Shown piece after piece: positions 18,955-56,808 of a DNA stretch of 64,000 bases. Each line of letters begins with the position of its first letter. Position 1 is the stretch's first letter. The stretch spans positions 248,001 to 312,000 of the forward strand of contig NZ_CP101459.1 of NCBI RefSeq assembly GCF_024362525.1, written 5' to 3'. This stretch comes from Natrononativus amylolyticus. Lineage in GTDB: Archaea > Halobacteriota > Halobacteria > Halobacteriales > Natrialbaceae. Both the position numbers and the translations under genes were made by a program. The notes under the pieces are model-generated. The model made no database searches. It had not been told where the DNA came from and saw nothing but the letters and a program-made list of their open reading frames with translations.

Positions 18955-20031
18955 TCACGACGGCGGTCCGTCCACGGCCCCGTCCGGCGACACGCCCGTC
19001 ACTCGCTCGAGGCCGCCGAACGTGACCGCGGTGAACGAGGCCTCAGCGGTCTCGCCGGGCTCGAGGACGTTCATCACGTCCTCGTCGTCGGGTGTTGCCA
19101 CCGGGTGGGACGTCGTCGGCTCGAGGCCGACGTTGTAGTTGCGGTTGAACCACGGCGACTTGTGGTAGCCGCCGAAGGGTTGCCAGTACCAGAGACACTC
19201 GAACGGATCGAGCGGAAAGTGCAGGCCGAACCCGAGATCGAGATCGGGGTTGGTGAGCGCGTACCAGCCCTCAGCCATGTCGATCGCGAACGACTGGTCG
19301 TGAATCGTCTCCTCACGTGCGGGAATCTCGCGGAGGTCTACGGTTTCGCCGTCGCGTCCCGGCGAGTGGGGCCACTCGTAGGTCGCCTCGTCGGCAAGCC
19401 GACCGTTCGGAAAGTCGTCGCCGTAGGGCGGGTTGTAGCCGGTGGCCTCGGGGAGGTCGAGCCTCGCGACGGGCGACAGCAGGGGTTCGCCAAGGGTGAT
19501 GTGGTGTTGCCAGACGTACTCGAGGGCCACCCCACCCTCGTTGGTCACCGACTCGTCGATGTGCAGGCGGGACTCGCCCGCCCGGAGGGTCAACTCCCGT
19601 TCCACGGAAAACGGGTAACGGACGAGATCGACGGTCAGCCGGAGCGTCGCGGCCTCGCCGTCGTCGCGGGCGACAGACGCCTCCCACGGGAGGAGCGCGC
19701 TCTCGCCGTGGAGGCCGTAAGAACTCCCCTCGACCTCGAGGCCGGTGCCGGCGATCGGCAGGTTCGTCTGCCAGCCGCCGGGGTAGTGTTCGTTCCAGAC
19801 GGTCTCCGTCGAGGGCACGTAGCGATCCCGCGGCGCCGTCCACTCGTGGGGCGCCCGCCAGAGGACGTCGACGTCCGTGCGTTTGTCTCTGAACTCGACG
19901 AGATCCCCGCCCTTGCCCGTCAGCACGACGACCCGGAGCGCCTCGTTCTCGAGGATCGCCGCCTCGATCCCCTTGTACGTGAACTCGGTGGAGAGTCGCG
20001 GCCCCGGCCCGGTCCGGTGGTCTGGGGTCAT
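18955..20031 (-). CDS. Aldose 1-epimerase-like (mutarotase fold, DUF4432-like) protein
   Basis: A 358-residue protein with the galactose-mutarotase-like beta-sandwich. The opening ALRVVVLTGKGGDLVEFRDK, then LWRAPHEW, GLHGESALLPWE and ESRLHIDESVTNEG, match the pattern of aldose 1-epimerases and the related DUF4432 proteins. It may convert sugar anomers or simply bind a sugar. Its start overlaps the stop of the ceramidase-like gene by four bases (ATGA). It is the last gene of a five-gene minus-strand group beginning at 25012. There is no signal peptide, so it is cytoplasmic. Confidence 0.8.
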   Translation of the reverse strand: MTPDHRTGPGPRLSTEFTYKGIEAAILENEALRVVVLTGKGGDLVEFRDKRTDVDVLWRAPHEWTAPRDRYVPSTETVWNEHYPGGWQTNLPIAGTGLEVEGSSYGLHGESALLPWEASVARDDGEAATLRLTVDLVRYPFSVERELTLRAGESRLHIDESVTNEGGVALEYVWQHHITLGEPLLSPVARLDLPEATGYNPPYGDDFPNGRLADEATYEWPHSPGRDGETVDLREIPAREETIHDQSFAIDMAEGWYALTNPDLDLGFGLHFPLDPFECLWYWQPFGGYHKSPWFNRNYNVGLEPTTSHPVATPDDEDVMNVLEPGETAEASFTAVTFGGLERVTGVSPDGAVDGPPS

Positions 20032-21317
20032 GGCTCCCTCCGTCGGGCGCCGGCCCGCTCGGCCACCGCGACTGCCTTCGTGAGAATCCGGTCTTCAGTC
20101 GTCGGGGCGTACAGCCCGTCCTCGAACGACTGCCAGGATTCGTAGCCACCTTCGGCGAGGATGCGCCGCGTCGGGAGATAGCCCGTGTTGTTGGCGTAGC
20201 CCGCTACCCACAGCGGCGCCGCCAGGGTCTCCTTCAGCCGTAACGAGAAGTCGGCGACGACCTCGCCCGAGAGCGAGAGCAGGGTGAGGTCGGTGCCGAA
20301 GCCGACCGCCTGGATCGGGTACGGGCGGTGGTCCGTGACTTCAGTGCCGACCGTTTCTCCGTCATTTCCGTCGCTGCCGTCGTCCACGGGGTTCTCGACG
20401 TCGAGGGCCACGTTGCCGGCCACGAGCCGAAGCGGTCCGCGAACCGGCCGCGGCTCGGTCACGAGCGCTCGCTCGACGGCGGTGGCCGCCGTCTCCGCGT
20501 GCTGTTTGACGAGCGCTCGAGTCCCCTGCGGGTACGCCTTCTGGTCGCCGGCGCAGCCGATGACGAAGACCGCCGTCGCCTCCGGGTAGAACTCCTCGAG
20601 GGCCGCCATCGCGTACCCCGGCCAGTCGCCGTTGACCTCGTTGCAGTAGGACATCCCGACGGTCGGGTGGCAGGCGTAGCCGAACAGGATCGCCTTCGTC
20701 GTCCCGTCGGCGGTTTCGGCGACGAGCACCGGGAGGTCGTGGTCGACGGGGCCGTCGGCGGTCGGCGAGAAGCCGATCCCCTCCTCGGACGGTCGCCGGC
20801 GGTTCATCGCGATGGCACACCGCGCGCGGTAGTGAGCCAGCGACGCGGGCTCGAGGTCGTCGAGTGCGTCGCCGATCACCGAGAGCAGCGTCTCGTCGAC
20901 GAACTCGCGGTAGGAAGCGACGAGGTCGTCGTCCCGGTCGTAGTCCTCCTCGAGACCCTCCCGGAGGACGTCGTAGTCCGGCCCGTAGTGGGTGTGACTC
21001 GGGGTGATGACGAGCGCCTCGGGCTCGAGGTCCCACCGCTTCGCACACTCCGCCTCGAGGAACTCGCGCTGGCTCTCGAAGACGAACAGCAGTTCGAACG
21101 AGAGGAAGACCATCCGTCGCCCCCGTCGATCCTCGAACGCCACCGCGCGGGCGTAGATGTCGTGTTCGACGCCGTCCATGTGGCCGTCGCGGGCGCCGAA
21201 GCCGATGAGCCGGTGGTCGGCGTCGGCCTCGGGGGTGATCGGCGCCGTCGCGGTTCCGATCCGCCACTCGAGGCCGGCGCCGTCGGCTGTCTCTCCGCGT
21301 GTTCGGTCGTTCGCCAT
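20028..21317 (-). CDS. Neutral-ceramidase-like amidohydrolase
   Basis: A 429-residue protein resembling the N-terminal domain of neutral/alkaline ceramidase. The family pattern is GTATAPITPEAD at the start, the zinc motif PSHTHYGP, and the FGYACHPTVGMSYCNEVNGDWPGYA segment that holds another ligand. Real neutral ceramidases are longer and exported; this one has no signal peptide and lacks the C-terminal immunoglobulin-like domain. Archaea have no ceramides, so it more likely cleaves another N-acyl compound, for example an N-acylated amino sugar. It overlaps the mutarotase-like gene. The protein at 60852-62225 is a second member. Confidence 0.82.
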   Translation of the reverse strand: MANDRTRGETADGAGLEWRIGTATAPITPEADADHRLIGFGARDGHMDGVEHDIYARAVAFEDRRGRRMVFLSFELLFVFESQREFLEAECAKRWDLEPEALVITPSHTHYGPDYDVLREGLEEDYDRDDDLVASYREFVDETLLSVIGDALDDLEPASLAHYRARCAIAMNRRRPSEEGIGFSPTADGPVDHDLPVLVAETADGTTKAILFGYACHPTVGMSYCNEVNGDWPGYAMAALEEFYPEATAVFVIGCAGDQKAYPQGTRALVKQHAETAATAVERALVTEPRPVRGPLRLVAGNVALDVENPVDDGSDGNDGETVGTEVTDHRPYPIQAVGFGTDLTLLSLSGEVVADFSLRLKETLAAPLWVAGYANNTGYLPTRRILAEGGYESWQSFEDGLYAPTTEDRILTKAVAVAERAGARRREP

Positions 21318-21386
21318 GGGTAGCCGTCCGTCGTGCGCCTCGAGTAATAAACCTACCCGATGCGGTACGGCCGGTTTCGCCCGCCG

Positions 21387-22727
21387 TCAGTCGTTCTCGC
21401 CGGTCCGCTGGCGCAGCGTCGCGCCGACCGGCTCGCCCTCGAGCCTGTCGGTCACGTCGTCGCTCTCGAGGGCGTCGGCGACAACCTCGAGCGACTCGCG
21501 GTAGGCATCGAGGACGAACGCGACGTCCTCGTCGGTGTGGCTGTACGTCGGGATGTGACTGCCGGTGTAGAGCACGCCGCGCTTGTGGGCCTCCTGCATG
21601 AAGAGGCTCCGAACGGCCTGGTCGTGGTCGCCCTCCTCGTCGTGGAACTGGATCGCAAAGCGCGGCGGAAGCCCCGTCGCTCGAGTCCGGTCCTCGAGTC
21701 CCACCTCGGTCGCGAGCTCGTTGTACCCCTCGAGGAGCGAGTCGCCGATCCGGAAGATGTGTTCGTGGACGTCCTCCTCCCGCTGGACGGTGATCGCCGC
21801 CTTCGCCGCGGCGAGCGAGGCTGCGTCGCCGGCGTAGGTCATCGAGTAGAAGAAGTCGTCGCGGTCGATCGTCTCCATGTACTCGCGCTTTCCGGCGAGC
21901 GCCGAGATGGGGAACCCGTTGGCCATCGCCTTCGCGAAGCAGGCGAGGTCGGGGGTGACGCCGTAGTACTCCTGTGCGCCACCGATGGCGAATCGGAAGC
22001 CGGTCAACACTTCGTCGAACACCAGCAGGGCTCCCTCGCGCTCCGCGAGTTCCTGCAGGCGCTCGAGGAAGTCGTCCGCCGGGTCCTCGAGGTTTACCGG
22101 CGTCGTCACGATCGCCGCGACGTTATCGGGGTGCGCTTCGAAGATCCGCTCGACACTCTCGATGTCGTTGTACTCGAATGCGACGGTGTTGTCGCCGATG
22201 CCATCCGGAATACCGGCGTCGAGCCCTTCGTTGGCGCTCGTCCAGACGTCGGGCCAGCCGTGGTAGCCCTGGGTCGCGATCACGTCCCGGCCGGTGTGTG
22301 CCCGCGCCACCTTCGCGGCGAGGGCGGTCACGTCGTTGCCGCTCTTGGCGAACTTCACCATCTCCGCACAGGGGACGACCTCGGTGAGGAGTTCAGCCAC
22401 CTCGACGTGGAGCGGGTGCTCCATCGTGTACATCGTCCCGTCATCGAGCTGCGCTTTGACCGCGTCGGTCACGGCGGGGTAGTTGTGACCGAGGAGCACC
22501 GGTCCCAGCGCCGCGTTGCAGTCGACGTACTCGTTGCCGTCGGCGTCCCACAGGCGGCTCCCGTCCGCGCGGGCGATGTGCGTCGGCGAGACGCCCTGGA
22601 CGAACTGCGTCGGCGCTTTGCTCCCAGTCTGGGTCGCCCCCGGGACGACCCGCGCCGCCCGATCCACTAGCTTTCGTGACTCCTGTACCGACCGGTCGCT
22701 CGCGGCCGATTGCGAACCCTTGGACAT
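21387..22727 (-). CDS. Class-III aminotransferase, glutamate-1-semialdehyde-mutase-like
   Basis: A 446-residue fold-type I PLP enzyme of aminotransferase class III. The PLP-binding aspartate is Asp238 (LLVFDEVLTGFRF) and the Schiff-base lysine is Lys266 (ACFAKAMANGFP). The family is often labelled HemL, but the context has no tetrapyrrole genes. The protein sits between a DegT aminotransferase and a ceramidase-like hydrolase, so a sugar- or amino-acid-specific transaminase or aminomutase is more likely. It belongs to the minus-strand group 25012-18955 with gaps of 69-101 bases on either side. Confidence 0.88.
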   Translation of the reverse strand: MSKGSQSAASDRSVQESRKLVDRAARVVPGATQTGSKAPTQFVQGVSPTHIARADGSRLWDADGNEYVDCNAALGPVLLGHNYPAVTDAVKAQLDDGTMYTMEHPLHVEVAELLTEVVPCAEMVKFAKSGNDVTALAAKVARAHTGRDVIATQGYHGWPDVWTSANEGLDAGIPDGIGDNTVAFEYNDIESVERIFEAHPDNVAAIVTTPVNLEDPADDFLERLQELAEREGALLVFDEVLTGFRFAIGGAQEYYGVTPDLACFAKAMANGFPISALAGKREYMETIDRDDFFYSMTYAGDAASLAAAKAAITVQREEDVHEHIFRIGDSLLEGYNELATEVGLEDRTRATGLPPRFAIQFHDEEGDHDQAVRSLFMQEAHKRGVLYTGSHIPTYSHTDEDVAFVLDAYRESLEVVADALESDDVTDRLEGEPVGATLRQRTGEND

Positions 22728-22828
22728 TACGAAAGAGACTCTCGCCGCGCGCTGATAAGTGCTTCGTTCACACGGAACGCAGCGTCAGACTGGTGCTCCG
22801 AGTTCGGGACCGCAGCGCTCGCCGGCTC

Positions 22829-24064
22829 TCACTCGAGCAACAGTTCGTCGACGTTCTCCTGAATCTTCCTGATCGCGCGCGGGATCGCCAGGACCGTGTC
22901 GTCCTCGGCGAGCAGCGCCGTGTGCGAGAGCCGGACGTTCGTTCGCATAATCTTCTCGACGCCGGGGAGGTGGCGGTGGCGGTTGACCGGGATGTCGGTT
23001 CCCGGCGGGACGAGCGCGCCCAGTTGCTCCCGGGAGAACGCCGGCTGCTTGTACAGCGGCAGTCCGTAGCCGGAACTCGCGGGAACGCCCTCGGCGGTGA
23101 GCGCCTCGAGGAACCGGTCCCGGGAGAGGCCGCCGAACGCCTCCGCGTCGTACCGGAAGTTGTAGACGCAGTAGCCGCGGTCGGTGATGCGGTCGTCCGC
23201 TCGCAGCGTGTGGATCCCGTCGATCGTCTCGAGTTCGGAGACCAGCAGCTCCTCGTTTCGCTGCCGGCGCTCGTTCTCCTCGGGGAGTTTCTCGAGCTGT
23301 GCACAGAGCAGCGCGCCCTGAAGTTCGGGCAGCCGGTAGTTCGAGGCGAGCATCGTGTGCTTGTACCCGGCGCCGACGGCCCGCCCGATGTTGTGGACGA
23401 GCCGCGCCTCCTCGGCGAGCACGTCGTCGTCGGTGACGACGATGCCGCCCTCGCCGGCGGGGAGGGCCTTCGACTGCTGGAACGAGAACGTCCCGAAGTC
23501 GCCGAAGGTGCCGACGCGCTCGCCCCGCCAGGCCGATCCCTGGGCGTGGGCGGCGTCCTCGATCAGGAACAGCTCGTGTTCCTCGACGATAGGCAGCAGT
23601 TCGTCCATGTCCATCGGGTACCCGCCGAAGTGGACGCCGACGATCCCGACGGTGTCCGCCGTGATCTCCTCGCGCACCGACTCGGGGTCGAGGTTGAACG
23701 TGTCGGGATCGACGTCGACGAACTTCGGGACGGCACCCATACACGCGATCGCGCTCGCGCTCGCGATGAACGTGTAGGCCGGGACGAGCACCTCGTCGCC
23801 GGGTTTCACGCCGCAGGCGCGCAGCGCGAGTTCGATCGCGACGGTGCCGTTCGAGACGGCGATCGCGTGTTCTGCGTCGTGGAACTCCGCGAACTCTTCT
23901 TCGAAGCGATCGACCCAGTCGGCGCCGTCGATGATCCGACACCACTTCTCCGACTCGAGGCTGTCGAGGACGTACTCTTTGCTCGTCTCCGTACACTGGG
24001 GCCAGCGCGGAATCTCGAGGTCGGCCGCCGCCTCGGGTCCGCCGTTGATCGCTAGGTCTGTCAT
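22829..24064 (-). CDS. DegT/DnrJ/EryC1/StrS-family sugar aminotransferase
   Basis: A 411-residue PLP enzyme of the sugar aminotransferase family. The order of motifs is SNGTVAIELALRA, VPAYTFIASASAI, IEDAAHAQGS and FSFQQSKALPAGEGG; the Schiff-base lysine is Lys199. Members usually transfer an amino group between glutamate or glutamine and a keto-sugar. Here it lies between a PIG-L deacetylase and another aminotransferase with no nucleotide-sugar genes, so it may run in the deaminating direction in amino-sugar breakdown. That direction is inference. Confidence 0.92.
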   Translation of the reverse strand: MTDLAINGGPEAAADLEIPRWPQCTETSKEYVLDSLESEKWCRIIDGADWVDRFEEEFAEFHDAEHAIAVSNGTVAIELALRACGVKPGDEVLVPAYTFIASASAIACMGAVPKFVDVDPDTFNLDPESVREEITADTVGIVGVHFGGYPMDMDELLPIVEEHELFLIEDAAHAQGSAWRGERVGTFGDFGTFSFQQSKALPAGEGGIVVTDDDVLAEEARLVHNIGRAVGAGYKHTMLASNYRLPELQGALLCAQLEKLPEENERRQRNEELLVSELETIDGIHTLRADDRITDRGYCVYNFRYDAEAFGGLSRDRFLEALTAEGVPASSGYGLPLYKQPAFSREQLGALVPPGTDIPVNRHRHLPGVEKIMRTNVRLSHTALLAEDDTVLAIPRAIRKIQENVDELLLE

Positions 24065-24169
24065 TGTCGTGTTCGACTACCTTCATCATGCGCGGTATGG
24101 TACATGAGTCCATCGGTCACGTCGATGCTGCGGTGGCCCGGGACCGACGGGCCGTCGAATCCGGGTCGT

Positions 24170-25012
24170 TCAGAACGGGAACAGCAGTTCCTCGTGCTTC
24201 GCCGTCATCGTCCCGCCGTACTCACACTCCTCGAACGCCTCGGCGTACTGCACCCGCGAGCCGCGCTCTTCCCCGTAACGCTCGATCAGGTCCTCCCGGA
24301 ACCGATCCGCGACCGCCTCGAAGTCGGGGGCGCGGGTTTCCGCGAGCCACTCTCGGCGCGCCTCGTCGCCCTCGGGCACCTCCTCGAGTACGTTCTGATT
24401 GTACGGCAGCCACTCGTACATCTGTGACTCGTGGCGGTGGATCGCGTCGAGCTTCCGTTCGATCGCGTCGTCGATGTCGACGACGACGTCCGCCTCGAAG
24501 GGGTACGGCTTCCGGAAGTCGTCCTCGAGGTAGCAGATGATCGGGTTGTACTGGAGGTGCGGCGTGTCGGGACAGATCGAAGGGACCGTGACCATGTACG
24601 CCGCGTCCTGGACGAGATCGGAGCCGTAGCGGTGGTCCGGGTGGTAGTCGTTCGGCCGGTGGGTGAGCACCAGGTCGGGTTCGTGCTCGCGGATGAGCCG
24701 GATGACCTTGTTGCGATTTTCGATCGTCGGGCGGAGCTTCCCCTCGATGATGTCGAGCGAAACGAAGTCTACACCGAGGACGTCGGCCGCCGCCCGACCC
24801 TCCGCGCGCCGGGTTCTGGTCAGTTCGAGGCCGCCGATCTCGTGGTGGCCGGCCTCGCCGTTGGTCAGGGAGACGAACGTGACGTCGTGGCCGCGGTCGG
24901 CCCACAGGCTGGCGGTGCCGCCGACTTTGATATCGCAGTCGTCGATGTGTGCGCCGATGACGAGCACAGTGAGCGGTTCGTCGGCTATCGCGTCGGGATC
25001 TGCCGTCGACAT
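24170..25012 (-). CDS. PIG-L family N-deacetylase
   Basis: A 280-residue zinc-dependent deacetylase, paralogue of 8344-9165. Motifs are GAHIDDCDIKVGG near the N-terminus (the usual Pro of HPDD is Ile here) and LTHRPNDYHPDHRYGSDLVQDAAYMVTVP. I set the start at the ATG 25012 rather than the longer frame from 25039, because a TATA-like box at 25036-25045 places transcription start next to 25012. It heads the five-gene minus-strand group. It probably removes the acetyl group from an N-acetyl sugar before the aminotransferase steps. Confidence 0.92.
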   Translation of the reverse strand: MSTADPDAIADEPLTVLVIGAHIDDCDIKVGGTASLWADRGHDVTFVSLTNGEAGHHEIGGLELTRTRRAEGRAAADVLGVDFVSLDIIEGKLRPTIENRNKVIRLIREHEPDLVLTHRPNDYHPDHRYGSDLVQDAAYMVTVPSICPDTPHLQYNPIICYLEDDFRKPYPFEADVVVDIDDAIERKLDAIHRHESQMYEWLPYNQNVLEEVPEGDEARREWLAETRAPDFEAVADRFREDLIERYGEERGSRVQYAEAFEECEYGGTMTAKHEELLFPF

Positions 25013-25140: not shown

Positions 25141-26229
25141 ATGGCAGACGGAGTCACGGTTCACGATCCCGACCGGAGTTACGACGGCTACACGCTGTTC
25201 AACGAGACGTACGAGTACCCCGAGAAGGCCCCCGACGGGACGGGGAAGATCTACCTGATCGATATGGACGGCGAACCCGTCCACCGCTGGGAGGTCGAGA
25301 CGGCGGTCCAGTCCTACACCCGCCTCCTGCCGAACGGAAACCTCCTCTATCCGACGCGCGACCGCTCGACGATCGAGGAGGCCGGCCTTCGGGAGCTCGA
25401 CCCCGAGAGCAACGTCGTCTGGTCCTACCACTGTCGTATCGACCACGACTACCAGGTGATGGACGACGACCGCCTCCTGCTCCACACCATCACCGACAAC
25501 ATGGTGCCCGAACTCGGTACGGAGCTCAAGCGCAACCCCTACATCGTCGAAATCGACCGTGAGAAAAACCTCCACTGGGAGTGGTTCGGGGAGGACCACG
25601 TCGACGAGATGAGAGAGTTGCTCCCGGCGGAGGACTGGGCGTTCGTCGAGAATCGCATCGAGGAGGAGTACGCCTTCGACTGGGCGCACAACAACACCCT
25701 GCAGGTAATCCCCGAGAACGAAACCGCCGAGAGAGAACGCGAGGAGGGCGGTCCCGTCCGCTTCGAACCCGGGAACATCGTCTTCTCCTACCGGAGCCTC
25801 GACGTCATCGGCGTCATCGACTACCCCAGCGGGGAGATCGTCTGGGCGTGGGGACCGAGCGAACTCGACGGCCAGCACCTCCCGCACGTTCTCGAGAACG
25901 GTAACGTCCTCATCTTCGACAACGGCACCGAGCGCGGGTGGTCGCGCGTAATCGAGGTCGATCCCCTGACCGAGGAGATCGTCTGGGAGTACACCGCCTC
26001 GCCGCGAGAGGAGTTCTACGCGCCGTTCATCTCCGGCGCACAACGACTGCCGAACGGCAACACGCTAATCTGCGAGGGGACGAAGAAACACCTCTTCGAG
26101 GTGACCCCCGACGGGGAGGTCGTCTGGGACTTCGTCAGCCCGTTCACCGAAGAGGGCTCGATGGGGAACGTCTACCGCTGTCTGCGCTACTCGCCGGAGT
26201 ACGTCGAGCCGCTACTCGAGTCACACTAA
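25141..26229 (+). CDS. Arylsulfotransferase-family beta-propeller protein
   Basis: A 362-residue protein of the ASST/arylsulfotransferase family (PQQ-like six-bladed propeller). Repeats of the type LPNGNLLYPT, LENGNVLIFDNG and LPNGNTLICEG alternate with E-I-V-W strands (NVVWSYH, EIVWAWG, EIVWEYT, EVVWDF). Bacterial arylsulfate sulfotransferases are periplasmic with a signal peptide; this one starts directly at MADGVTVHDPDRSYDGYTLFN, so it is probably cytoplasmic. It may move sulfate from an aryl sulfate to another acceptor, or only bind ligands. The nearby sulfatase makes sulfate metabolism a sensible context. A TATA-like box is at 25092-25101. Confidence 0.83.
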   Translation: MADGVTVHDPDRSYDGYTLFNETYEYPEKAPDGTGKIYLIDMDGEPVHRWEVETAVQSYTRLLPNGNLLYPTRDRSTIEEAGLRELDPESNVVWSYHCRIDHDYQVMDDDRLLLHTITDNMVPELGTELKRNPYIVEIDREKNLHWEWFGEDHVDEMRELLPAEDWAFVENRIEEEYAFDWAHNNTLQVIPENETAEREREEGGPVRFEPGNIVFSYRSLDVIGVIDYPSGEIVWAWGPSELDGQHLPHVLENGNVLIFDNGTERGWSRVIEVDPLTEEIVWEYTASPREEFYAPFISGAQRLPNGNTLICEGTKKHLFEVTPDGEVVWDFVSPFTEEGSMGNVYRCLRYSPEYVEPLLESH

Positions 26230-26618: not shown

Positions 26619-27419
26619 TCAGCGGTTCGCCGGCTGGTCGACGCTGCGCGCCCTGTAGTCGGCGAACGCGTCGCTGCCGTGGGCGAGCGCTCCCGCGGCG
26701 TCGTCGGTCACGCCGTTCTCGCAGACGAGCCACTCGGCGCCGTTCTCACGGGCGGCGTCGACGCAGGCCTCGAGGTCGACGACCCCGGTGCCGACGTCCG
26801 CGTGGAGGGCGTCCGGGTCGTCGGGAACCGTGTCGGTCACGTGGACGACGGGGGCGCGCTCCGAGACGAGCGAGAGGAGTTCCAGGGCGTCGTACCCCGC
26901 GTGGGTCGCGAGTCCGACGTCCGGCTCGTAGCCGAAGCGACCGTCGGCGTGCTCGACGAAGTGCTCGAAGGCGGGGACGGCGTCGCCGTCGACCTCGATC
27001 TCGGTAAACTCGAAGGTGTGGTTGTGGTAGAGCAGTTCGACGTCGTGGTCGGCCAGGTCGTCGGCCAGCGCCGCGAGCCGGTCGGCCGCCGCTTCGACGC
27101 CCGCCGCGGACTCGAACGCCCCCGGATCGTACGTCGGGACGATCAGACGGGAGATGCCGACCGTCTCGCAGGCCGCGACGACGTCTTCGAGTGACGACTC
27201 GATTCGGTCGACGCCCAGGTGGGCGCCGGCGACTCCGAGGCCGGCGTCGTCGAGGGCGTCGGCGGTTCGCTCGAGGTCCCCGTCGTCCTCGAAGTCGTCG
27301 AAGTGAGCGGCGTAGAACTCGACGCCGTCGAACGTCGTCTCGCCGACGCGGGAGATGACCTCCGCCGTCGGTTCCTCGAACGCTCTCAGCGTGTACAGCT
27401 GAATCGCTGTTCGTACCAT
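26619..27419 (-). CDS. Sugar phosphate isomerase/epimerase-like TIM barrel protein
   Basis: A 266-residue member of the xylose-isomerase-like TIM barrel superfamily. The long frame continues upstream, but ATG 27419 is 26 bases from a clear TATA box and gives the same MVRTAIQL start as the paralogue at 60082. The metal-binding set appears complete: YHNHTFEF, the Glu/Asp of YEPDVGLATHAG, VVHVTDTVPD and CENG. These proteins isomerise or epimerise sugars or inositol intermediates with a divalent metal. It sits near a sulfatase and the arylsulfotransferase-like gene. Confidence 0.9.
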   Translation of the reverse strand: MVRTAIQLYTLRAFEEPTAEVISRVGETTFDGVEFYAAHFDDFEDDGDLERTADALDDAGLGVAGAHLGVDRIESSLEDVVAACETVGISRLIVPTYDPGAFESAAGVEAAADRLAALADDLADHDVELLYHNHTFEFTEIEVDGDAVPAFEHFVEHADGRFGYEPDVGLATHAGYDALELLSLVSERAPVVHVTDTVPDDPDALHADVGTGVVDLEACVDAARENGAEWLVCENGVTDDAAGALAHGSDAFADYRARSVDQPANR

Positions 27420-27597: not shown

Positions 27598-29070
27598 TCA
27601 GCTCTCCGAGCTGCAGTCGTCCGGATCGCCGACGTCTTCGGAGCCCGCACTCGTCGGGACGAGCCGCCCGTCCTCGACGAATCCCTCCTCGCGGTCGGCG
27701 AGGCGATCGACCATCGCCTCGCGGGCTCGCTCGAGCCGGTCTGCGTGGGCCGCCGACTCCGAGAGGTCCCGCTCCTCGCCGGGGTCCTCGGCGAGGTCGA
27801 ACAGCAGGCGGCTGTCGGTGACGGGGTTCCAGACGAACTTGTAGCGCTCGCCGATCAGGTACTGGGTGCCGTTCTCCGGATCGTAGCTCCCGGGAGCGTG
27901 CTCGCCGTGGTACCACTCGCGCCAGTCCTCGCGTTCGGGCTCCTCGAGGAGTTCGAACAGGTTCCGCCCCTCCACGGTATCGGGGACGTCGACGTCCGCG
28001 GCCGAGAGCAGCGTCGGCATCACGTCCTCGAGCCCCACCGGCTGACCGACGATCCGCTTTCGCGGCGCCTCCATCCAGTCGGGATACCGAAGCAGGAACG
28101 GGACCCTCGAGGACCCCTCGTAGGCGTAGCTCTTTCGCCACATGTGGTGGTCGCCGAGCATCTCGCCGTGGTCCGAGCAGAAGACGACGAACGTGTTCTC
28201 GTAGTCGCCGCTCAGCCGAAGTGCGTCGATGACCCGCTTGATCTGGTGGTCGATGTGGGTGATGAGGCCGTAGTAGGCCGCTCGCGCCCGGTGGACGATC
28301 GTCGGCGGGAGGTCCGCAAGCCAGGCGTCCGCGGCCGGATAGTCGGGGATCTTCTCGCCGTGTTCGGCGTCGATCCAGTCGCCCATGTACGGCGCCGGGG
28401 TCTCGCGGTCGACGTACATATCCCAGTACGCCTGCGGCGGATCGAACGGGGTGTGCGGGCGCACGTACGACAGGTTGAGGAAGAACGGCCGGCTCTCGTC
28501 GCGCTGGTCGAGGAACTCGAGGGCCTTGCGAGTCGTCCAGTTCGTCGGGTGGTGGTACTCCTCCGCGTGCCAGGGGCGGGGGTCCCACGAGTTCCGCCCG
28601 AGCCCGTGGGACAGCTCGTCGAAGTTGCCGTCGGTTTCGGTCTCGAGCCAGCGCGTGTAGTCGTCGTTCGGGTGGGAGAACAGCGCCTCGTGCTGGTCCA
28701 TGCTCTCGAACCCCATGTGCTTGCGGATCGGGATCGAGTGGATCTTCCCGGCGAGTTTCGTCTGGTAGCCCGCGTTCCGAAGCTCCTCCGGAAGCGTGTG
28801 CTCGAACTCCCAGGGGGTGGTCACCCAGCCCGGCGCGCCGTTGGTCGAGGGCGTCTGTCCCGTGAGCAACGACCGCCGCGCCGGAATGCACGACGGGGCG
28901 GGGGTGTACGCCCTGGTGAACATCGCGCCGTTCTCGATGAAGTTGTCGATGTTCGGCGTGTGAACGAGCGATCGTCCGTCCTCGTCTCGCGGCGAGTGCG
29001 GATCAGCACCGATGCAGTCCCCCCGGTGCTGGTCAGTCATGATGAACAGGATGTTCGGTCGGTCCGCCAT
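27598..29070 (-). CDS. Formylglycine-dependent sulfatase
   Basis: A 490-residue S1-type sulfatase. The N-terminus NILFIMTDQHRGD carries calcium-binding aspartates, and the active-site cysteine is Cys61 in the C-x-P-x-R motif (SCIPARRSLLTG), which must be oxidised to formylglycine. Later metal ligands are in FCSDHGEMLGDHH. No signal peptide is present, so the sulfate ester is cleaved inside the cell, after import. It is divergent from the second beta-helix protein. With the sulfatase at 39049 it suggests at least two sulfate positions or substrates. Confidence 0.94.
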   Translation of the reverse strand: MADRPNILFIMTDQHRGDCIGADPHSPRDEDGRSLVHTPNIDNFIENGAMFTRAYTPAPSCIPARRSLLTGQTPSTNGAPGWVTTPWEFEHTLPEELRNAGYQTKLAGKIHSIPIRKHMGFESMDQHEALFSHPNDDYTRWLETETDGNFDELSHGLGRNSWDPRPWHAEEYHHPTNWTTRKALEFLDQRDESRPFFLNLSYVRPHTPFDPPQAYWDMYVDRETPAPYMGDWIDAEHGEKIPDYPAADAWLADLPPTIVHRARAAYYGLITHIDHQIKRVIDALRLSGDYENTFVVFCSDHGEMLGDHHMWRKSYAYEGSSRVPFLLRYPDWMEAPRKRIVGQPVGLEDVMPTLLSAADVDVPDTVEGRNLFELLEEPEREDWREWYHGEHAPGSYDPENGTQYLIGERYKFVWNPVTDSRLLFDLAEDPGEERDLSESAAHADRLERAREAMVDRLADREEGFVEDGRLVPTSAGSEDVGDPDDCSSES

Positions 29071-29311: not shown

Positions 29312-30886
29312 ATGACCTCAGACCGATCAGCAGATCGCACAAGCAACGCTACCCGACCGGCCGGTGCGGACTCGAGTCCGCGCGGACTCGACAGGCGGGG
29401 CTGTCTCAAACTTGCCGGTGCCAGCCTCCTGGCCGGAGTCGCGGTGGGCGTTCCGGGAGTCGCCGCGGCGGACGACGACGAGTACGGTACGGTTCTCGAT
29501 ATCGTCGACGACTTCGGTGCCGATCCGACCGGTGAGGAACCGATCAACGACGCGCTCGCCGAAGCGACGGCAGCGGTCGAGTACGATTTCAGCCACTACG
29601 ATGGCGTCGGCTCGCCTATTGTGGCGGTCGACGAGATTGATTTCAACGACGACGGCGTCAAGGTCGCCTTTCCGGAAGGCGAGTACGTCGTCGACAGCGG
29701 ACCGAACAACTGGGGGTTCGCTCGCTGGGGGATCAGCCCCGACACCCCCAAGGAACAGCAGTTTCTCGGCAAACTCGCGGTGGTCGGTGACGGCGACGTC
29801 ACGCTCGGGACGACCGAGGGAGGGCGGTACCCGCTGTTCACGCTCTGGGGCCGTGACATCCGGATCGAGAACTTCACCGTCGACCAGACGCCGGACGACA
29901 CCTCGACCGGCATAACGGGACAGGCTTCCGAACGGCTCGAGATCCGGGATATCCACTTCGACGGGAAAGTGACCGGTCCGTACCAGGAACTGCCCCACCC
30001 CAATGACGAACCGGAGGAGTACAACGAGAACATCCTCGACGACCCGCAGTGTCTCGGCCCCGGTGTCTTCGGTTCCGACGGGGGCGGCGTGATCGAGAAC
30101 GTCCGAGCACCCGATGGCGTCGTCGATTACAGTCGAAAGGGTGGCGTCTGGGTGACGTTCCACCACGCAGGCGACCTGCTCTTTCGAAACTGCGAGTTCT
30201 CCTACTTCGGAGACAACGCGATCTACGCTTCTCCACCCGGTATGTCCGGAAACGGCCAGCAGGGATCGGTCCGCGTCGAGGATTCGCTGTTCAAGAACAA
30301 CAACGTCACCGCGATCCGACTCGGCACCCCGGGAAGCTACGCCAAAAACTGCGTCGTCATCACCGAGGAAGGCGAGATCCCCGCAACCCCCTGGGGCGCG
30401 ATCACGAGCCGCGCCGGCTGGGTCTGGTACACCTTCGACGGCTACTACGAGAACATCGACGTGATCCACGACCACCCCGCTGGAGAGGGGATTCTCGACC
30501 ACAACGACGACACCAGGGGCCTCGATCTCACGGTCCGGAACTGCCGGTTCGAGCTGAACAACGACGGGTCGAACGCACTCCGGGTCACCGATCCCGGCGT
30601 CGATAGGCTCGCGGTCCGGAACGTCGACGTCACCGGCGAGGCCGGAGACGGCGCGGCCGTCGAACTCGGAAACACGGACGTCGACGTTCGTAACCTCTGT
30701 CTCTCCCAGACCGGGGACGACCGCGACGGGATCTCGCTCGCCAACGCCACCGGTTCGATCGTCAACGCGAACGTCGACGTCACGGGCGAACAGATCGTCG
30801 GGGACGACGGCGGCGTGACCGTCCGAAACCTTCGAGACGACGGATCCTGCTCGCCCGCACGTCCACGGAACCCGCTCGAGGACTGA
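29312..30886 (+). CDS. Exported Tat-signal beta-helix protein, pectate-lyase-like fold
   Basis: A 524-residue exported protein counted from ATG 29312; the open frame extends to 29012 but that would bury the signal. The Tat motif is LDRRGCLKLAG at about 26-36, followed by a hydrophobic stretch ending in AAAD. The mature N-terminus (VLDIVDDFGADPTGEEPINDALAEA) is the DFGADPTG start typical of pectate-lyase-3-like and phage tailspike beta helices. Repeats such as FRNCEFSYFGDNAIYAS, VEDSLFKNNNVTAIRLG and VRNCRFELNNDGSNALRV follow. It may bind or cleave an extracellular polysaccharide. It shares fold and signal with 4747-6333, but sequence similarity looks low. Confidence 0.83.
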   Translation: MTSDRSADRTSNATRPAGADSSPRGLDRRGCLKLAGASLLAGVAVGVPGVAAADDDEYGTVLDIVDDFGADPTGEEPINDALAEATAAVEYDFSHYDGVGSPIVAVDEIDFNDDGVKVAFPEGEYVVDSGPNNWGFARWGISPDTPKEQQFLGKLAVVGDGDVTLGTTEGGRYPLFTLWGRDIRIENFTVDQTPDDTSTGITGQASERLEIRDIHFDGKVTGPYQELPHPNDEPEEYNENILDDPQCLGPGVFGSDGGGVIENVRAPDGVVDYSRKGGVWVTFHHAGDLLFRNCEFSYFGDNAIYASPPGMSGNGQQGSVRVEDSLFKNNNVTAIRLGTPGSYAKNCVVITEEGEIPATPWGAITSRAGWVWYTFDGYYENIDVIHDHPAGEGILDHNDDTRGLDLTVRNCRFELNNDGSNALRVTDPGVDRLAVRNVDVTGEAGDGAAVELGNTDVDVRNLCLSQTGDDRDGISLANATGSIVNANVDVTGEQIVGDDGGVTVRNLRDDGSCSPARPRNPLED

Positions 30887-30928: not shown

Positions 30929-31729
30929 TCACTCGATGCGTTCTCGCGCCTCCGGACACCACCAGCAGTCCGGTTCGGCACAGAGCAGGAAACCGGGATC
31001 GTCCTCGAGCGCCTCGAGTGCCGCCTCGATGATCGCGTCGCCGTCCATCAATTGCGCGGGCGCTCGACCGATGTGACCGCGCCTGAGAACGCCCGCGTCG
31101 TCGGCGAGCGGCTCGAGCGCCGAAAACCCTTTACCGCAGCCGACGCGCGCCGTCTCGACCGTCCGCACGGTTCCGTCCCCGTCGCGAACGAGGACCCGGT
31201 TCGTCCCCGTCTTGTACGGCAGCTCGGCGAGCGCCTCCGCGACGTGAATCGTCGAGTTTCGCTCGTGACCGACGCCGACGAGCAGGATCGAGCCGCCGCG
31301 TCTCGCCAGGCGGTGCAGCGGGCTGTCGGCGCCCAGCGATCGCTCGAGGGCGTGATCCGTCGTCAGCGTCGTCGCTGCCGGACCGATCGCCGACACCGAG
31401 TGCGTCGGGTGTGCGCTCCGAACGGCGTCGGGGCGAGTGCGGAGCGTCTCGGTGATCGCCCCGGTTCGCGACCGGGTCCGCTCGCGATCGAACGGCTCCT
31501 CACGGACGACGAACGGTGTAAACGTGGGAACGACGACCGTTCCCTCGCTCCCGACGGCGGTGCAGAGCGCGTCGATGACCGCGTTCGCGCCGCCCTCGAC
31601 CCAGCCGATGCTCGAGAGCGCGCCGTGAACCGCGACCTCGTCGCCGTCGCGGAGTCCGAGTCGCTCGAGGTCCGCGACGAGATCCGCCGTCGAGACCGTT
31701 CCGTCGGCCGGATCCGGTGTCCCGGTCAT
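30929..31729 (-). CDS. AAC(3)-family N-acetyltransferase
   Basis: A 266-residue member of the aminoglycoside 3-N-acetyltransferase (antibiotic_NAT) fold. The motifs VHGALSSIGWVEGGANAVIDAL, GTVVVPTFTPF and HPTHSVSAIGPAA match the acetyl-CoA and catalytic His/Asp regions. The start at ATG 31729 was chosen over the open frame extending upstream. A true resistance role is doubtful in an archaeon; many relatives acetylate other amines and amino sugars, which fits this cluster. A C-terminal Cys/Trp-rich stretch (CAEPDCWWC) is a small oddity. Confidence 0.85.
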   Translation of the reverse strand: MTGTPDPADGTVSTADLVADLERLGLRDGDEVAVHGALSSIGWVEGGANAVIDALCTAVGSEGTVVVPTFTPFVVREEPFDRERTRSRTGAITETLRTRPDAVRSAHPTHSVSAIGPAATTLTTDHALERSLGADSPLHRLARRGGSILLVGVGHERNSTIHVAEALAELPYKTGTNRVLVRDGDGTVRTVETARVGCGKGFSALEPLADDAGVLRRGHIGRAPAQLMDGDAIIEAALEALEDDPGFLLCAEPDCWWCPEARERIE

Positions 31730-31736
31730 CCCCGGG

Positions 31737-32192
31737 TCAGGACAGTTCGACAGTGACGCGGCCGTCGAAGTTGAGCAACACCGACTGGGTCGTATCACCG
31801 AAGACGACCTTGCCGGTCGGGGATCGCTTGCGGCCGCCGATGAAGACGTGGTCGCAGTCGTACTCCTCGGCGATCTCGAGGATCGTCCCCGCTTCCTCGT
31901 CTTCGAGGACGGTGGCGACGGCCGTCGAATCGACGTCGACGCCCTCGAGGACGTCCGCCGCGTGCCGTTCGGTGTCGGAGACGACCGACCGGAGGATGAC
32001 GTCTTCGTCGTAGTCTGCGTGCTCGACGTCCGCGATCGTCTCGAGGACGTCTAAGTCCTCGTCGAACTCCTCGGCGTCGACGAGCGAGAGCATCACGAGT
32101 TCGGCGTCGACGCCGGCGGCCAGTTCGCCGGCTTCCCTGAGCAGTTCGTCGGTTTCGTTCGAGTCGTCGAGGATCACGAGTGCACGTTCCAT
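31737..32192 (-). CDS. Universal stress protein (UspA family)
   Basis: A 151-residue UspA protein. It starts MERALVILDDSNETDELLREAGELA and ends with the nucleotide-binding region VFIGGRKRSPTGKVVFGDTTQSVLLN, which matches the G-x2-G-x9-G-S/T pattern in spirit. The longer frame from 32936 is antisense overlap with the dehydrogenase. Its stop is seven bases from the AAC(3)-like gene, so the two may be co-transcribed. The role is general stress or energy sensing. Confidence 0.92.
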   Translation of the reverse strand: MERALVILDDSNETDELLREAGELAAGVDAELVMLSLVDAEEFDEDLDVLETIADVEHADYDEDVILRSVVSDTERHAADVLEGVDVDSTAVATVLEDEEAGTILEIAEEYDCDHVFIGGRKRSPTGKVVFGDTTQSVLLNFDGRVTVELS

Positions 32193-32284: not shown

Positions 32285-33340
32285 CTACGGGCGGAGCACC
32301 GCCTTCACGACGCCGTCGCGACGGTTCTGGACGGTGTCGAGCGCCGTTTCGAACTCCTCGAGCGGGAACTCGTGGGTGACGACGCCCTCCGTCGTCAGGT
32401 CGCCCCGGCGGAACAGTTCGATGACCTCGTCGACCGCGTGGGCGGCGGTTACCCCGCCGACGATGGTCAGTTCCTTGGCGACGATCTGGTCCGGATCGAG
32501 GTCCTTCTGCTGACCGAAGACGCCCGTGAGCGCGATGGTTCCCTGCTTGGCGGCGCTCTGGACGCAGGTCTCGAGGACGTCGCCAGCGCCGGCGGCCTCG
32601 ATACAGAGGTCGACGCCCCGTCCATCGGTGTGCTCCATCAGCGCCTCGACCGGGTCTTCCTCGCGGACGTTGACCGTTCGCGTCGCGCCGAGTCGTTCGC
32701 CGGCCTCGAGGCGCTCGTCGCGCGTGCCGGTGAGGACGACGTCGTCGACGCCCTGGGCGCGGAGGAGCTGGACGCCGTAGAGGCCGAGCGAGCCGGGGCC
32801 GAGCACCGCCGCGGTGTCGGTGAACGACGTGGCGACGCGGTGCATCGCGTGGAGCGTACAGCCCGCCGAGTCGATCTGGCTCGCCTGAACGTCCGAAACG
32901 TCGTCGGGCAGCGGCGTGAGGGTGTACGCCGGCCACGCGGCGTACTTCCGGTAGCCGCCGTCGATGGTGAAGCCGATCTCCTTCAGCTCGTCACACTGGT
33001 AGTAGCGGCCGTCACGGCACCCCTCGCAGGTGCCACAGAAGACGAAGCCGTGGAGGGCGACCCGCTGGCCGACCTCGAGGTCGTCGACGCCGTCGCCGAG
33101 CGCGACGACCTCGCCGGCCACCTCGTGGCCGAGGACGATGGGGTAGTCCGTCCACGGCGGCCCCTCGCCGTGGATGAGGCCGACGTCGCTGCCGCAGATT
33201 CCGATCGCGGTGACGCGGACGAGCGCCTCGCCCGGCCCCGGCTCCGGAACCTCGCGTTCTTCGGCCCAGGCCTCGCCCGTTCCGTCCGTCACGACGGCCT
33301 GCTGGGACGCTCCGACCGGCGGCTCCGTCACGCCGCTCAT
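32285..33340 (-). CDS. Zinc-dependent medium-chain alcohol/polyol dehydrogenase
   Basis: A 351-residue medium-chain dehydrogenase of the sorbitol/threonine dehydrogenase type. The catalytic zinc ligands are in GICGSDVGLIHGEG and GHEVAGEVVALG. The structural zinc lobe has four cysteines (CGTCEGCRDGRYYQC). The Rossmann motif is VLGPGSLGLYG. It probably oxidises a sugar, polyol or amino alcohol with NAD(P). It is 216 bases downstream of a second, zinc-less relative on the same strand. Confidence 0.92.
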   Translation of the reverse strand: MSGVTEPPVGASQQAVVTDGTGEAWAEEREVPEPGPGEALVRVTAIGICGSDVGLIHGEGPPWTDYPIVLGHEVAGEVVALGDGVDDLEVGQRVALHGFVFCGTCEGCRDGRYYQCDELKEIGFTIDGGYRKYAAWPAYTLTPLPDDVSDVQASQIDSAGCTLHAMHRVATSFTDTAAVLGPGSLGLYGVQLLRAQGVDDVVLTGTRDERLEAGERLGATRTVNVREEDPVEALMEHTDGRGVDLCIEAAGAGDVLETCVQSAAKQGTIALTGVFGQQKDLDPDQIVAKELTIVGGVTAAHAVDEVIELFRRGDLTTEGVVTHEFPLEEFETALDTVQNRRDGVVKAVLRP

Positions 33341-33556: not shown

Positions 33557-34564
33557 TCACTCCCACTCGAGAACCACGCCCATCGCCTCCGAGCGGTCCT
33601 CGAGCAGGTCCCCGTACAGCCGCGGCGCCTCCCGGTAGGACTCGGTGTGGCTGATCAGCGGCGCGACCTCGAGCGTCCCGTCCTCGACGAGGTCGAAGAA
33701 CAACTCGGCGTGGCGGTGTTGGGTCCACGGGTTCCCCGGCGTCGCGACCGGCGGGTGGGAAGCGTTGTGCGCCCCGATGATGGCGTAACTGGGCGCGTTA
33801 CAGTGGTCGTGGAGGTCGATCGTCGTCTCGCCGCGGGGGCTGCTCAGGACGACCAGTCGACCCTGCTCGCGCAAGACGTTGAACTCGTCGGTGATCACGT
33901 CGGGATTGCCCGTCACCTCGAAGACGACGTCGGCGAGGCGGTCGTTGCCCGCCGCCCGCACGGTCGACTCGGGATCGTCCGAGAGCGGGTTCGCCCCGAC
34001 GACGCCCGGATCGTCGGGGAGATACTCGAGTCTGGAGTCTGCGACGTCGAATCCGACGACCGGTCGAGCGCCGGCGGCGCTGCAGACGCGAACGGCCAGC
34101 TGGCCGAGGAGCCCGAGCCCGTAGACGGTCGCCGACTCACCCCAGGTGAGATCGCTCCGTCGCACGCCGTTCATCACGATCTCGGCGATGGTGAAGAACG
34201 TCGCCTCGTCGTCGGTTACGCCGTCGGGAATCGGCCGGCAGGCGGCGGCGGCGGTGCAGACGTACTCTGCGTGACCGCCGTAGGTGGCGACGCGCTGCCC
34301 CGTCGAAACCGACGCGACGTCGTCGCCGGTTTCGACGACCGTCCCGATGTTGTTGTATCCGGGCGTAAACGGGTACTCGATGTGATCGTCCCAGCTCGAA
34401 CCGCGCGGAACGTCACCGGCGAGCGCGGTCAGTTCGGTGCCGGTACTGACGAGCGTGCGGTTCGAGCGGATCAGCACCTGATCCGCCTCTGGTTTCGGAA
34501 CCGGCCGCTCTTCGATCGCTGGCGATTCGACGTCCGTGAATACGACTGTGTGGTTTGTGGTCAT
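33557..34564 (-). CDS. Zinc-site-lacking medium-chain dehydrogenase/reductase
   Basis: A 335-residue MDR-superfamily protein from ATG 34564. The frame is open to 34633 but those residues look non-coding. It has the catalytic-fold N-terminal domain and a Rossmann motif (VYGLGLLGQLAVRV). The usual Cys-Gly-Ser-Asp zinc motif is replaced by VSTGTELTALAG, and the structural cysteine lobe is missing. This matches the dehydrogenase-like half of bi-domain oxidoreductases often found beside Gfo/Idh/MocA proteins. It may dehydrogenate a sugar without zinc. It lies in the sugar cluster with no tight operon partner. Confidence 0.85.
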   Translation of the reverse strand: MTTNHTVVFTDVESPAIEERPVPKPEADQVLIRSNRTLVSTGTELTALAGDVPRGSSWDDHIEYPFTPGYNNIGTVVETGDDVASVSTGQRVATYGGHAEYVCTAAAACRPIPDGVTDDEATFFTIAEIVMNGVRRSDLTWGESATVYGLGLLGQLAVRVCSAAGARPVVGFDVADSRLEYLPDDPGVVGANPLSDDPESTVRAAGNDRLADVVFEVTGNPDVITDEFNVLREQGRLVVLSSPRGETTIDLHDHCNAPSYAIIGAHNASHPPVATPGNPWTQHRHAELFFDLVEDGTLEVAPLISHTESYREAPRLYGDLLEDRSEAMGVVLEWE

Positions 34565-35145
34565 CGATATGCATCGGTGGCTGGCGGTCCGCCTCGCCCC
34601 GTCCGTGTGAGCGATACACGCACCCGGTACCATAGGTGTTTTCGTTACGCCGGATCGACGGTCCGCGAACGGCTCTCGGCTCGAGGTCGCGACGCTCGAG
34701 GACAGGCCCAGGCGTCGGACCCGAAACGGCAGCCGAGAGCACAGTCAGTTTACCTCTGGTAAACGATTCGCCCCGCTCGCTCATGACACGGTACTGAGTG
34801 ACACAGTCCGGTTCGGAGATGAATCCACCAAATTCCGGCACGATGTGGTTCACGTTACAGGCATACGTTAGTAATTCTATCGCGGTTCGTTCTCTCGAGA
34901 TGATCGTTTTGCGTCGGTGAACGCGACTCGTATACCCGGCGCACCGTTCGAAACGGTTTCATCGGAAAAAACGGCCGCGTGACCGCTGGCCCGGTCGGAA
35001 AGGAGCCCTGAGAGATCGACACACAGAACGGAGCAATCGCGACCGGAGAGCCGCGGGTACGCCTGGCTGGGGTCGGAGTCGGAACTCGTTCACGACGGTT
35101 CTCACGCCGTGGTCGCGGGTCGAACGGTCTCCGCGCGGCGACCCG
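34565..35145. other. Long intergenic stretch with a perfect palindrome
   Basis: These 581 bases have no supportable gene: frames on both strands are random-looking and low in acidic residues. The only clear structure is the palindrome at 34748-34764. AT-rich promoter-like sequence lies at 34865-34880. Confidence 0.6.
34748..34764. promoter_or_regulatory. Perfect 17-base palindrome, candidate IclR operator
   Basis: GTTTACC-TCT-GGTAAAC is a perfect inverted repeat 184 bases upstream of the zinc-less dehydrogenase gene. Its form matches the palindrome at 63454-63470 and partly the one before the second IclR gene. I infer a binding site for a regulator of this island. Confidence 0.55.
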
Positions 35146-36867: not shown

Positions 36868-36987
36868 ATGCGAGATCGTTCGATGTACACACGTGACGCG
36901 TCCGTACTGACACAGCTGTCGTTCGGCCGGCGAGGGACGGCGGCTCGAGGATCGAAAGCGGCCGAGACTAGGAGGCCAAACGCATGA
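36868..36987 (+). CDS. Possible 39-residue leaderless upstream ORF
   Basis: The ATG lies at the expected transcription start, and the TGA overlaps the ATG of the flavoenzyme gene (ATGA). The peptide is basic (many Arg and Lys), unlike normal haloarchaeal proteins, so its sequence may not matter. An AGGAGG ribosome-binding site at 36970-36975, inside this frame, sits eight bases before the flavoenzyme ATG. Translation of the small frame could control access to that site. It could also be chance. Confidence 0.35.
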   Translation: MRDRSMYTRDASVLTQLSFGRRGTAARGSKAAETRRPNA

Positions 36988-51807: not shown

Positions 51808-51869
51808 CCGATGGTAAACCAATACGCGAGTGCGGTATTAAGTCCCACGGCAGCGGCGTGTTCCGCAGA

Positions 51870-54580: not shown

Positions 54581-54583
54581 CGG

Positions 54584-56639: not shown

Positions 56640-56808
56640 ATGTTAGGACTTCTCGCGGATTTCCCACCGCGTAGCCGAGGCGGTGCTGGCTGCGGTTGCA
56701 ACCGGGGTGTGCTCACTCTCCACACGACGTACCATAGAACGTGAAAGCCGGTTCGTCGACTTATAATTTGTGATGCGGGCTATCCTCCACGTCGGGACTC
56801 GAGACCGG

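Follow-up and report, generated by a model that had tools for sequence, protein, structure and literature searches.

Five clustered genes of Natrononativus amylolyticus belong to a shuffled, probably catabolic gene island

Do closely packed genes for a deacetylase, two aminotransferases, a ceramidase-like protein and a mutarotase-like protein make up one linear pathway, or are they the visible corner of something larger? The question is raised by a locus of the haloarchaeon Natrononativus amylolyticus, within a 64,000-nucleotide stretch (hereafter the window) at positions 248001-312000 of the 768-kb contig C2 (NZ_CP101459.1); the genome comprises 3.99 Mb in three contigs. The original prediction, made from the letters of the window, saw in five minus-strand genes a possible pathway for N-acylated amino sugars, undescribed for archaea, in which deacylation is followed by amino-group transfer; a single transcript was proposed as a check. 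The genes themselves are as described there: a Pfam scan and codon statistics, which are haloarchaeal, confirm all five open reading frames (ORFs), their families and their spacing, with intergenic gaps of 105, 101 and 69 bases and a four-base overlap (ATGA, 20028-20031) between the Cer1 and DUF4432 genes.

24170..25012, minus strand: PIG-L family deacetylase (PF02585, 94.1 bits; gathering cut-off 28.2)
22829..24064, minus strand: DegT aminotransferase (PF01041, 324.2 bits; family cut-off 19.8)
21387..22727, minus strand: class III aminotransferase, AT3 (PF00202, 175.7 bits)
20028..21317, minus strand: ceramidase-like protein, Cer1, 429 amino acids (PF04734, Ceramidase_alk, 39.7 bits, covering the N-terminal part of the model only)
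18955..20031, minus strand: DUF4432 protein of predicted mutarotase fold, 358 amino acids (PF14486, 78.1 bits; cut-off 32.5)

The distribution of these genes points to the larger alternative: what the original prediction saw is a fragment of a gene set that is inherited together and is probably catabolic. In the reading we favour, to which we give an even chance, the five genes belong to an island that catabolises a sulfated, N-acylated amino sugar or a compound resembling one (an aminocyclitol). Each of the five proteins was used as a query against 125 genomes of the family. Cer1 finds matches in 15 genomes at E<=0.001; nine of these, the window's genome included, are at least 74% identical, and the next best is at 50%. 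DUF4432 finds 12, with the same nine at 71% or more and the next at 57%. AT3 finds 107 at E<=1e-60, mostly at 40% identity or below, with the same nine at 62% or more. Close orthologs of these three proteins coincide exactly, in nine of the 125 genomes, spread over six of 29 genera. DegT, at E<=1e-80, is found in 14 genomes, the same nine and five that carry a ceramidase-like relative of 40-50% identity. Of the 15 genomes with a ceramidase-like match, 14 thus have DegT, against none of the 110 that lack such a match. PIG-L (13 genomes at E<=1e-40) is the loosest of the five, because an ortholog of at least 71% identity is present in only five of the nine island genomes. A relative of 41-44% identity lies in the islands of G110, G113, G117 and G016, in several of them adjoining the RidA-like and ADH1 genes; it might replace the ortholog there.

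The co-inherited set reaches far past the five genes, to at least 62 kb of the window. Forty-six window ORFs were compared with stretches of 160-197 kb that surround the ceramidase-like ortholog in each of the eight other genomes, and 22 families were counted across the islands by identity thresholds fixed after the values were seen. Half of the families (11/22) recur in all eight: DUF4432, Cer1, AT3, DegT, an arylsulfotransferase-family protein (ASST), a TIM-barrel protein (TIM1), a sulfatase (Sulf1), a dehydrogenase (ADH2), a Gfo/Idh/MocA dehydrogenase (GfoC), an amidohydrolase (AmdH2) and a beta-helix protein. Genes for a DgaE-like protein, ADH1, an IclR-like regulator, a RidA-like protein and a second ceramidase-like protein (Cer2) recur in seven, G008 being the island without them.

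Gene order within the islands is shuffled from genome to genome. Adjacency was taken as lying within 600 bases on one strand, with matches at 50% identity or more, and with the ORF at 31737-32936, which overlaps ADH1, dropped from the 46. Cer1 and DUF4432 are then the only pair always adjacent and co-directional (9/9 genomes); AT3 and Cer1 adjoin on the same strand in six of nine, against a baseline of 170 adjacent among 3740 gene-pair cases. In G007 and G104, the Cer2 ortholog lies about 0.3 kb or less from AT3. In G008 and G016, AT3 is close to DegT and far from the ceramidase-like gene, at distances of about 73 kb and 13 kb, respectively. PIG-L adjoins DegT only in the window's genome among the nine. 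On this count, and for want of a PIG-L ortholog in four of the nine, the linear five-gene pathway of the original prediction is not supported.

Relatives elsewhere show further arrangements. PIG-L and DegT are neighbours, divergently oriented, in Haladaptatus sp. DYF46; in G111, G112 and G114, about 1.4 kb separate DegT, which has sulfatase, DgaE-like and FAH genes behind it, from a relative of the window's second PIG-L gene. Outside the family, a plasmid of Haloprofundus salinisoli carries, on one strand, genes for a substrate-binding protein, a GH28-related protein, DegT, AT3, two ATP-binding cassette (ABC) ATPases and a ceramidase-like protein, with PIG-L, IclR, luciferase-like oxidoreductase (LLM) and FAH genes 8-12 kb upstream. 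In Halomontanus rarus the genes are split between two parts of one plasmid: one stretch holds the ceramidase-like-DUF4432 pair together with PIG-L, and DegT and AT3 are some 70 kb away from it. The island is mostly plasmid-borne and has been reshuffled among haloarchaea. Within it, at 45215-46492 on the minus strand, stands a gene for an IS605 OrfB/TnpB-like transposase (PF01385, PF07282), a possible agent of the shuffling.

The single transcript is likewise argued against, because conserved promoter-like boxes stand before AT3 and Cer1, two genes inside the group.

22754..22759, minus strand: TATA-like box CTTATC, 32 nt before the AT3 ATG; 8/8 other genomes
21346..21351, minus strand: TATA-like box TTTATT, 34 nt upstream of Cer1; 7/8 other genomes

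The sequence upstream of AT3 in the window is CGAAGCACTTATC, in which CGAAG lies directly upstream of the box. The motif YTTAWY was picked after both window sites had been inspected, so that its value lies in the orthologs and the control genes; it occurs 20 times in the window, counting both strands. In the range searched before the start codon it is found in the other genomes for AT3 (8/8, 0.09 expected) and Cer1 (7/8, 0.06 expected), in two of eight for DegT and none of four for PIG-L; the controls DUF4432, DppD and DppF have it in none of the eight each. According to the accessible text of PMC4983044, 72% of the protein-coding transcripts of Haloferax volcanii are leaderless, and TTWT and CGAAA are the TATA and B recognition element motifs of haloarchaea. 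From these sequence motifs, AT3 on the one hand and Cer1-DUF4432 on the other probably have transcript starts of their own; read-through from upstream may also occur. One linear five-gene operon was rejected on the boxes and the shuffled gene order.

Such observations would also suit an account in which several catabolic routes are simply parked on one plasmid, with Cer1-DUF4432, DegT-AT3 and PIG-L, for example, serving separate ones. Shuffled order, boxes that set AT3 and Cer1 apart, a PIG-L distribution that differs from that of the other four genes and the distance of the AT3-DegT neighbours from the ceramidase-like gene in G008 and G016 would all follow. That account seems unlikely to us all the same, as it sits poorly with the exact coincidence of Cer1, DUF4432 and AT3 in nine of 125 genomes and with the presence of DegT, AT3, ceramidase-like and DUF4432 genes together on the Halomontanus rarus plasmid too.

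What chemistry, then, might the proteins perform? The PIG-L protein has the metal-site motifs of its family, H22-x-D24-D25 and H124-P-D-H127, with H22, D24, D25, H124, D126 and H127 invariant in 8/8. Its nearest solved relative is an archaeal diacetylchitobiose deacetylase (8bgn; E 3e-17, 66 bits over 185 residues), and against the bacillithiol deacetylase BshB1 equivalog it scores 119.3 bits, below the cut-off of 182.5. The CE14 deacetylase of a chitin cluster in Natrarchaeobius presumably belongs to the same PIG-L/LmbE family. Thermococcus and Pyrococcus diacetylchitobiose deacetylases (8bgn, 3we7) share both family and HxDD and HPDH motifs with the window protein. Deacetylation by a PIG-L-type enzyme of this kind has been described in Thermococcus kodakarensis (accessible text of PMC6579819 and PMC3102087), where the chitin pathway goes on with an exo-glucosaminidase and a glucosamine-6-phosphate deaminase (PMC6579819); in that text the Thermococcus/Pyrococcus pathway is without aminotransferases, unlike the island.

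The DegT protein aligns with 2-deoxy-scyllo-inosose aminotransferase (2c7t) and 3-amino-5-hydroxybenzoic acid (AHBA) synthase (1b9h), its nearest solved relatives at 222 and 221 bits, in the N-terminal WPQ region and at the pyridoxal phosphate (PLP) lysine, K199, which is kept in 8/8 orthologs. Equivalogs for named sugar aminotransferases (PseC, ArnB, WecE, LegC-type and others) give at best 231.6 bits against a cut-off of 420. AT3 has its PLP lysine, K266, in the sequence FAKAMANG, also kept in 8/8 orthologs, and belongs to a HemL-like superfamily: PRK06209 scores 391 bits (cut-off 486) and hemL 244.3 (cut-off 527.3); HemL is the nearest solved relative, followed lower in the ranking by an aminopentol aminotransferase and by aminoglycoside C-6' aminotransferases. 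Contig C1 of the same genome encodes a better HemL match (441.7 bits, also below the cut-off). A role for AT3 as housekeeping HemL was rejected on its own low score and this better candidate.

Cer1 was called a ceramidase-like hydrolase in the original prediction, and its predicted fold is in keeping with the likeness. Its predicted model (mean predicted local distance difference test score, pLDDT, 76.4) superposes on Pseudomonas aeruginosa neutral ceramidase (2zws) with Z 32.3 and a root-mean-square deviation of 3.2 over 373 residues, and on human neutral ceramidase (4wgk) with Z 30.1; these Z-scores (VIA-align) re-examine Foldseek's own matches. The alignment pairs residues 14-423 of the model with 1-487 of the 2zws chain, which is 630 long, and the C-terminal domain is absent. 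H108, H217, E352 and Y380 of Cer1 align with the ceramidases and are invariant in 19/19 sequences; we take these to be the positions of the ceramidase zinc ligands His, His, Glu and Tyr. The model supports, for Cer1, the catalytic fold of a neutral ceramidase with four putative zinc ligands. Unlike the neutral ceramidases, Cer1 has neither the C-terminal domain nor a serine at what we take to be the active-site position. None of the 19 sequences has Ser in that column (Lys in ten, Asn in nine; Lys260 in Cer1), nor does any of the best 80 wider relatives, of which the 70 bacterial ones, mainly from Planctomycetes and Verrucomicrobia, have Asn (69) or a gap (1) and the ten archaeal ones, which overlap the set of 19, have Lys (7) or Asn (3). 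Identity to neutral ceramidase is 20%, and the ceramidase NCBIfam model gives 16.8 bits against a cut-off of 1200. Ceramidase as the stated function was rejected for lack of the serine, and an N-acyl specificity is not to be read off the family name, because Cer1 is without that residue. The bacterial loci are no help on partners, with DegT matches nearby in three of 70 among the matches listed.

The label ‘mutarotase-like’ holds for DUF4432, the constant partner of Cer1: its profile match is 3ty1, a putative aldose 1-epimerase (E 2e-6), and its predicted model matches galactose mutarotases (Foldseek, E down to 1e-16), which supports an aldose 1-epimerase (mutarotase) fold.

The remaining island genes supply the setting. 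The families come from a scan of window proteins unless otherwise said, and counts refer to the nine islands or to the eight other than the window's.

14835-15209: RidA-like gene, named through a 69% counterpart annotated as RidA family (L211 6348-6722)
25141..26229, plus strand: ASST family protein; all nine islands
26619..27419, minus strand: TIM1, xylose isomerase-like, weakly IolE-like; all nine islands
27598..29070, minus strand: arylsulfatase Sulf1, CIPAR motif (PRK13759, 519.9 bits, cut-off 481); all nine islands
29312..30886, plus strand: right-handed beta-helix/pectate-lyase-like protein with a twin-arginine (Tat)-type RRGCL near its N-terminus; all nine islands
30929..31798, minus strand: AAC(3)/FrbF-type N-acetyltransferase family protein (PF02522, 202.2 bits); at 55% or more in 5/8 other islands
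32285..33340, minus strand: Zn alcohol dehydrogenase ADH1, best matched, below cut-off, by the scyllo-inosose 3-dehydrogenase model; 7/8 other islands
33557..34633, minus strand: Zn dehydrogenase ADH2; all nine islands
35455..36666, minus strand: SelA/DgaE-like PLP ammonia-lyase family protein (DgaE family 206 bits, cut-off 385)
36984..37964, plus strand: LLM; 6/8 other islands
37969..39045, plus strand: Gfo/Idh/MocA dehydrogenase GfoC; all nine islands
39049..40602, plus strand: second sulfatase Sulf2, CLPSR motif; 6/8 other islands
42604..43338, plus strand: FAH-family hydrolase; 6/8 other islands
43347..44141, minus strand: IclR-like regulator IclR2, named from the likeness by eye of its N-terminus to a scanned IclR protein; 7/8 other islands
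50131..51822, minus strand: amidohydrolase-2 family protein AmdH2; all nine islands
52140..58761, minus strand: Dpp-type ABC importer block, the four subunits DppF, DppD, DppC and DppB-like named by eye and from tblastn blocks, SBP_bac_5 from the family scan
60852..62225, minus strand: second ceramidase-like protein Cer2, also without the Ser; 7/8 other islands
L210 207-1010; L211 14907-15713 and 10290-11273; L212 9145-10125: creatininase-family and carbon-nitrogen hydrolase genes, by annotation

Both sulfatases carry a CxPxR motif, and several Gfo/Idh enzymes are present. Amine-handling families in the window are DegT, AT3, DgaE-like, PALP, AAC(3)-like and RidA-like. The acetyltransferase, with FrbF and AAC(3) among its relatives, is an odd neighbour for a deacetylase. 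A flavin reductase family gene lies at 41847-42476 on the minus strand and could form a two-component monooxygenase with the LLM. At 8344-12477, on the minus strand, the second PIG-L gene has as neighbours two Gfo/Idh genes and a gene of threonine-dehydratase-like PALP+ACT type; Saliphagus infecundisoli (L050/L130) shows a similar grouping. The creatininase-family and carbon-nitrogen hydrolase genes, found in the named-plasmid islands, would be further amide-cleaving enzymes.

Catabolism is favoured because a substrate-binding protein and sulfatases are present and no glycosyltransferase scores above its cut-off among the window proteins scanned. The opposite direction has to be weighed, since a biosynthetic cluster might use DegT, AT3, the AAC(3)-like acetyltransferase and the deacetylase to build an amino sugar or an aminoglycoside-like product. 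The closest solved relatives of DegT, the aminoglycoside C-6' aminotransferases among those of AT3 and the FrbF and AAC(3) relatives of the acetyltransferase all suit such a role, and PIG-L enzymes serve bacillithiol and mycothiol synthesis too. Yet the same scan shows no nucleotidyltransferase or cyclitol synthase either, no aminocyclitol biosynthesis genes were seen beside DegT, the specific equivalog models score below their cut-offs, and the substrate-binding protein, sulfatases and beta-helix enzyme suggest uptake and degradation; we consider biosynthesis very unlikely.

In the favoured reading, we infer a catabolic direction, a class of substrate and an order of steps. That is, the secreted beta-helix enzyme and the sulfatases would trim the material; the Dpp-type importer would bring the pieces in; inside, the PIG-L deacetylase, and perhaps the ceramidase-fold metallohydrolase too, would open amide bonds; ring positions would be oxidised to ketones by Gfo/Idh and Zn dehydrogenases; at such a keto or aldehyde carbon DegT and AT3 would take the amino group away (or add it); nitrogen would be released as ammonia by the DgaE-like lyase and RidA; and DUF4432 would interconvert anomers of the substrate or product of Cer1. 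The amino-sugar theme of the original prediction is kept to this extent, that DegT, AT3, Cer1 and DUF4432 are co-inherited in nine of 125 genomes, in a sugar-catabolic setting with amine enzymes.

A more familiar account supposes that the island is a variant of the haloarchaeal route predicted for N-acetylglucosamine (GlcNAc) and chitin, or for glycosaminoglycans (GAG), in which deacetylase, glucose-type dehydrogenase and DgaE-like lyase do the work and the aminotransferases are accessory. The Natrarchaeobius chitin cluster predicted for GlcNAc use has a deacetylase, a dehydrogenase, a DgaE-like ammonia lyase, IclR, RutC and an ABC importer (accessible text of PMC12343721), and the island, likewise haloarchaeal, has such genes too, its deacetylase, DgaE-like lyase, IclR and RidA-like genes matching at family level only (RutC/RidA being one family); the same kinds of gene, glucose dehydrogenase included, recur in Natrarchaeobius chitin clusters (PMC12343721). 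Haloarchaeal GAG loci, for their part, are plasmid islands with a sulfatase, a sugar importer and a GH88/GH154/PL8 set, as the accessible text of PMC13260240 has it, and plasmid location, sulfatase and importer are shared with the island. The DgaE-like protein, moreover, is wider than the island, at 40 of 125 genomes (E<=1e-60). The Natrarchaeobius cluster is, however, centred on chitinases, where the island has sulfatases, two aminotransferases, ceramidase-like proteins and DUF4432, and the nitrogen is removed there by a lyase rather than by the transamination of the original prediction (PMC12343721). GH18 chitinase is found in one of nine island genomes and not in the window's. GH88, carried by the GAG loci (PMC13260240), is not consistent here: it is absent from three of nine genomes, the window's genome has its only match on C1, and matches elsewhere lie outside the island stretches examined, except one in G016 (C2:87704), 57 kb from the ceramidase-like gene. 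Chitin and GAG were lowered as substrates on these counts. The accessible text of PMC12343721 and PMC13260240 names no step for DegT, for a class III aminotransferase or for a ceramidase-like protein, and we regard this account as distinctly improbable.

A bolder form of the favoured reading supposes that archaea have a so far unrecognised pathway for breaking down sulfated compounds that resemble aminocyclitols or aminoglycosides. DegT would be a cyclitol aminotransferase run catabolically; ADH1, TIM1 and the Gfo-type enzymes would act on an inosose-like ketone; and the ceramidase-fold proteins would be serine-free metallo-amidases or esterases for acyl groups bound to sugars, not lipids. This too we think distinctly unlikely as it stands.

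Several points weigh against the favoured reading itself, that of a catabolic island for a sulfated, N-acylated amino sugar or a compound like it. None of the specific curated models for DegT, AT3, the DgaE-like protein and PIG-L reaches its cut-off. A PIG-L ortholog is absent from four of the nine islands, where only the 41-44% relatives are found. The nine island genomes are related, and the counts ignore kinship; co-inheritance, moreover, shows a shared function of the whole island, not of five genes in sequence. A deacetylase and an acetyltransferase in one island are not obviously one-directional. Finally, there is no glycosidase family among the window proteins scanned; as a candidate depolymerase there is the beta-helix protein alone.

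How new would such a pathway be? The claim that it is undescribed for archaea holds in part. Deacylation has been described in T. kodakarensis (PMC6579819) or predicted in Natrarchaeobius (PMC12343721), whereas the combination of DegT, AT3, ceramidase-like protein and DUF4432 does not appear in the accessible text of PMC12343721, PMC13260240 or PMC6579819. No description of the island was found in the literature searched, which covers few of the subscription journals.

If the favoured reading is right, at least two haloarchaeal families (Natrialbaceae and Haloferacaceae) would hold a co-inherited gene set for the use of carbohydrates that bear nitrogen and sulfate, substrates whose use by haloarchaea has been reported only lately, to go by the accessible text of PMC13260240 and PMC12343721. 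The serine-less proteins of ceramidase fold teach caution in reading ‘ceramidase’ off a family name, and they, like DUF4432, would gain a function that can be tested.

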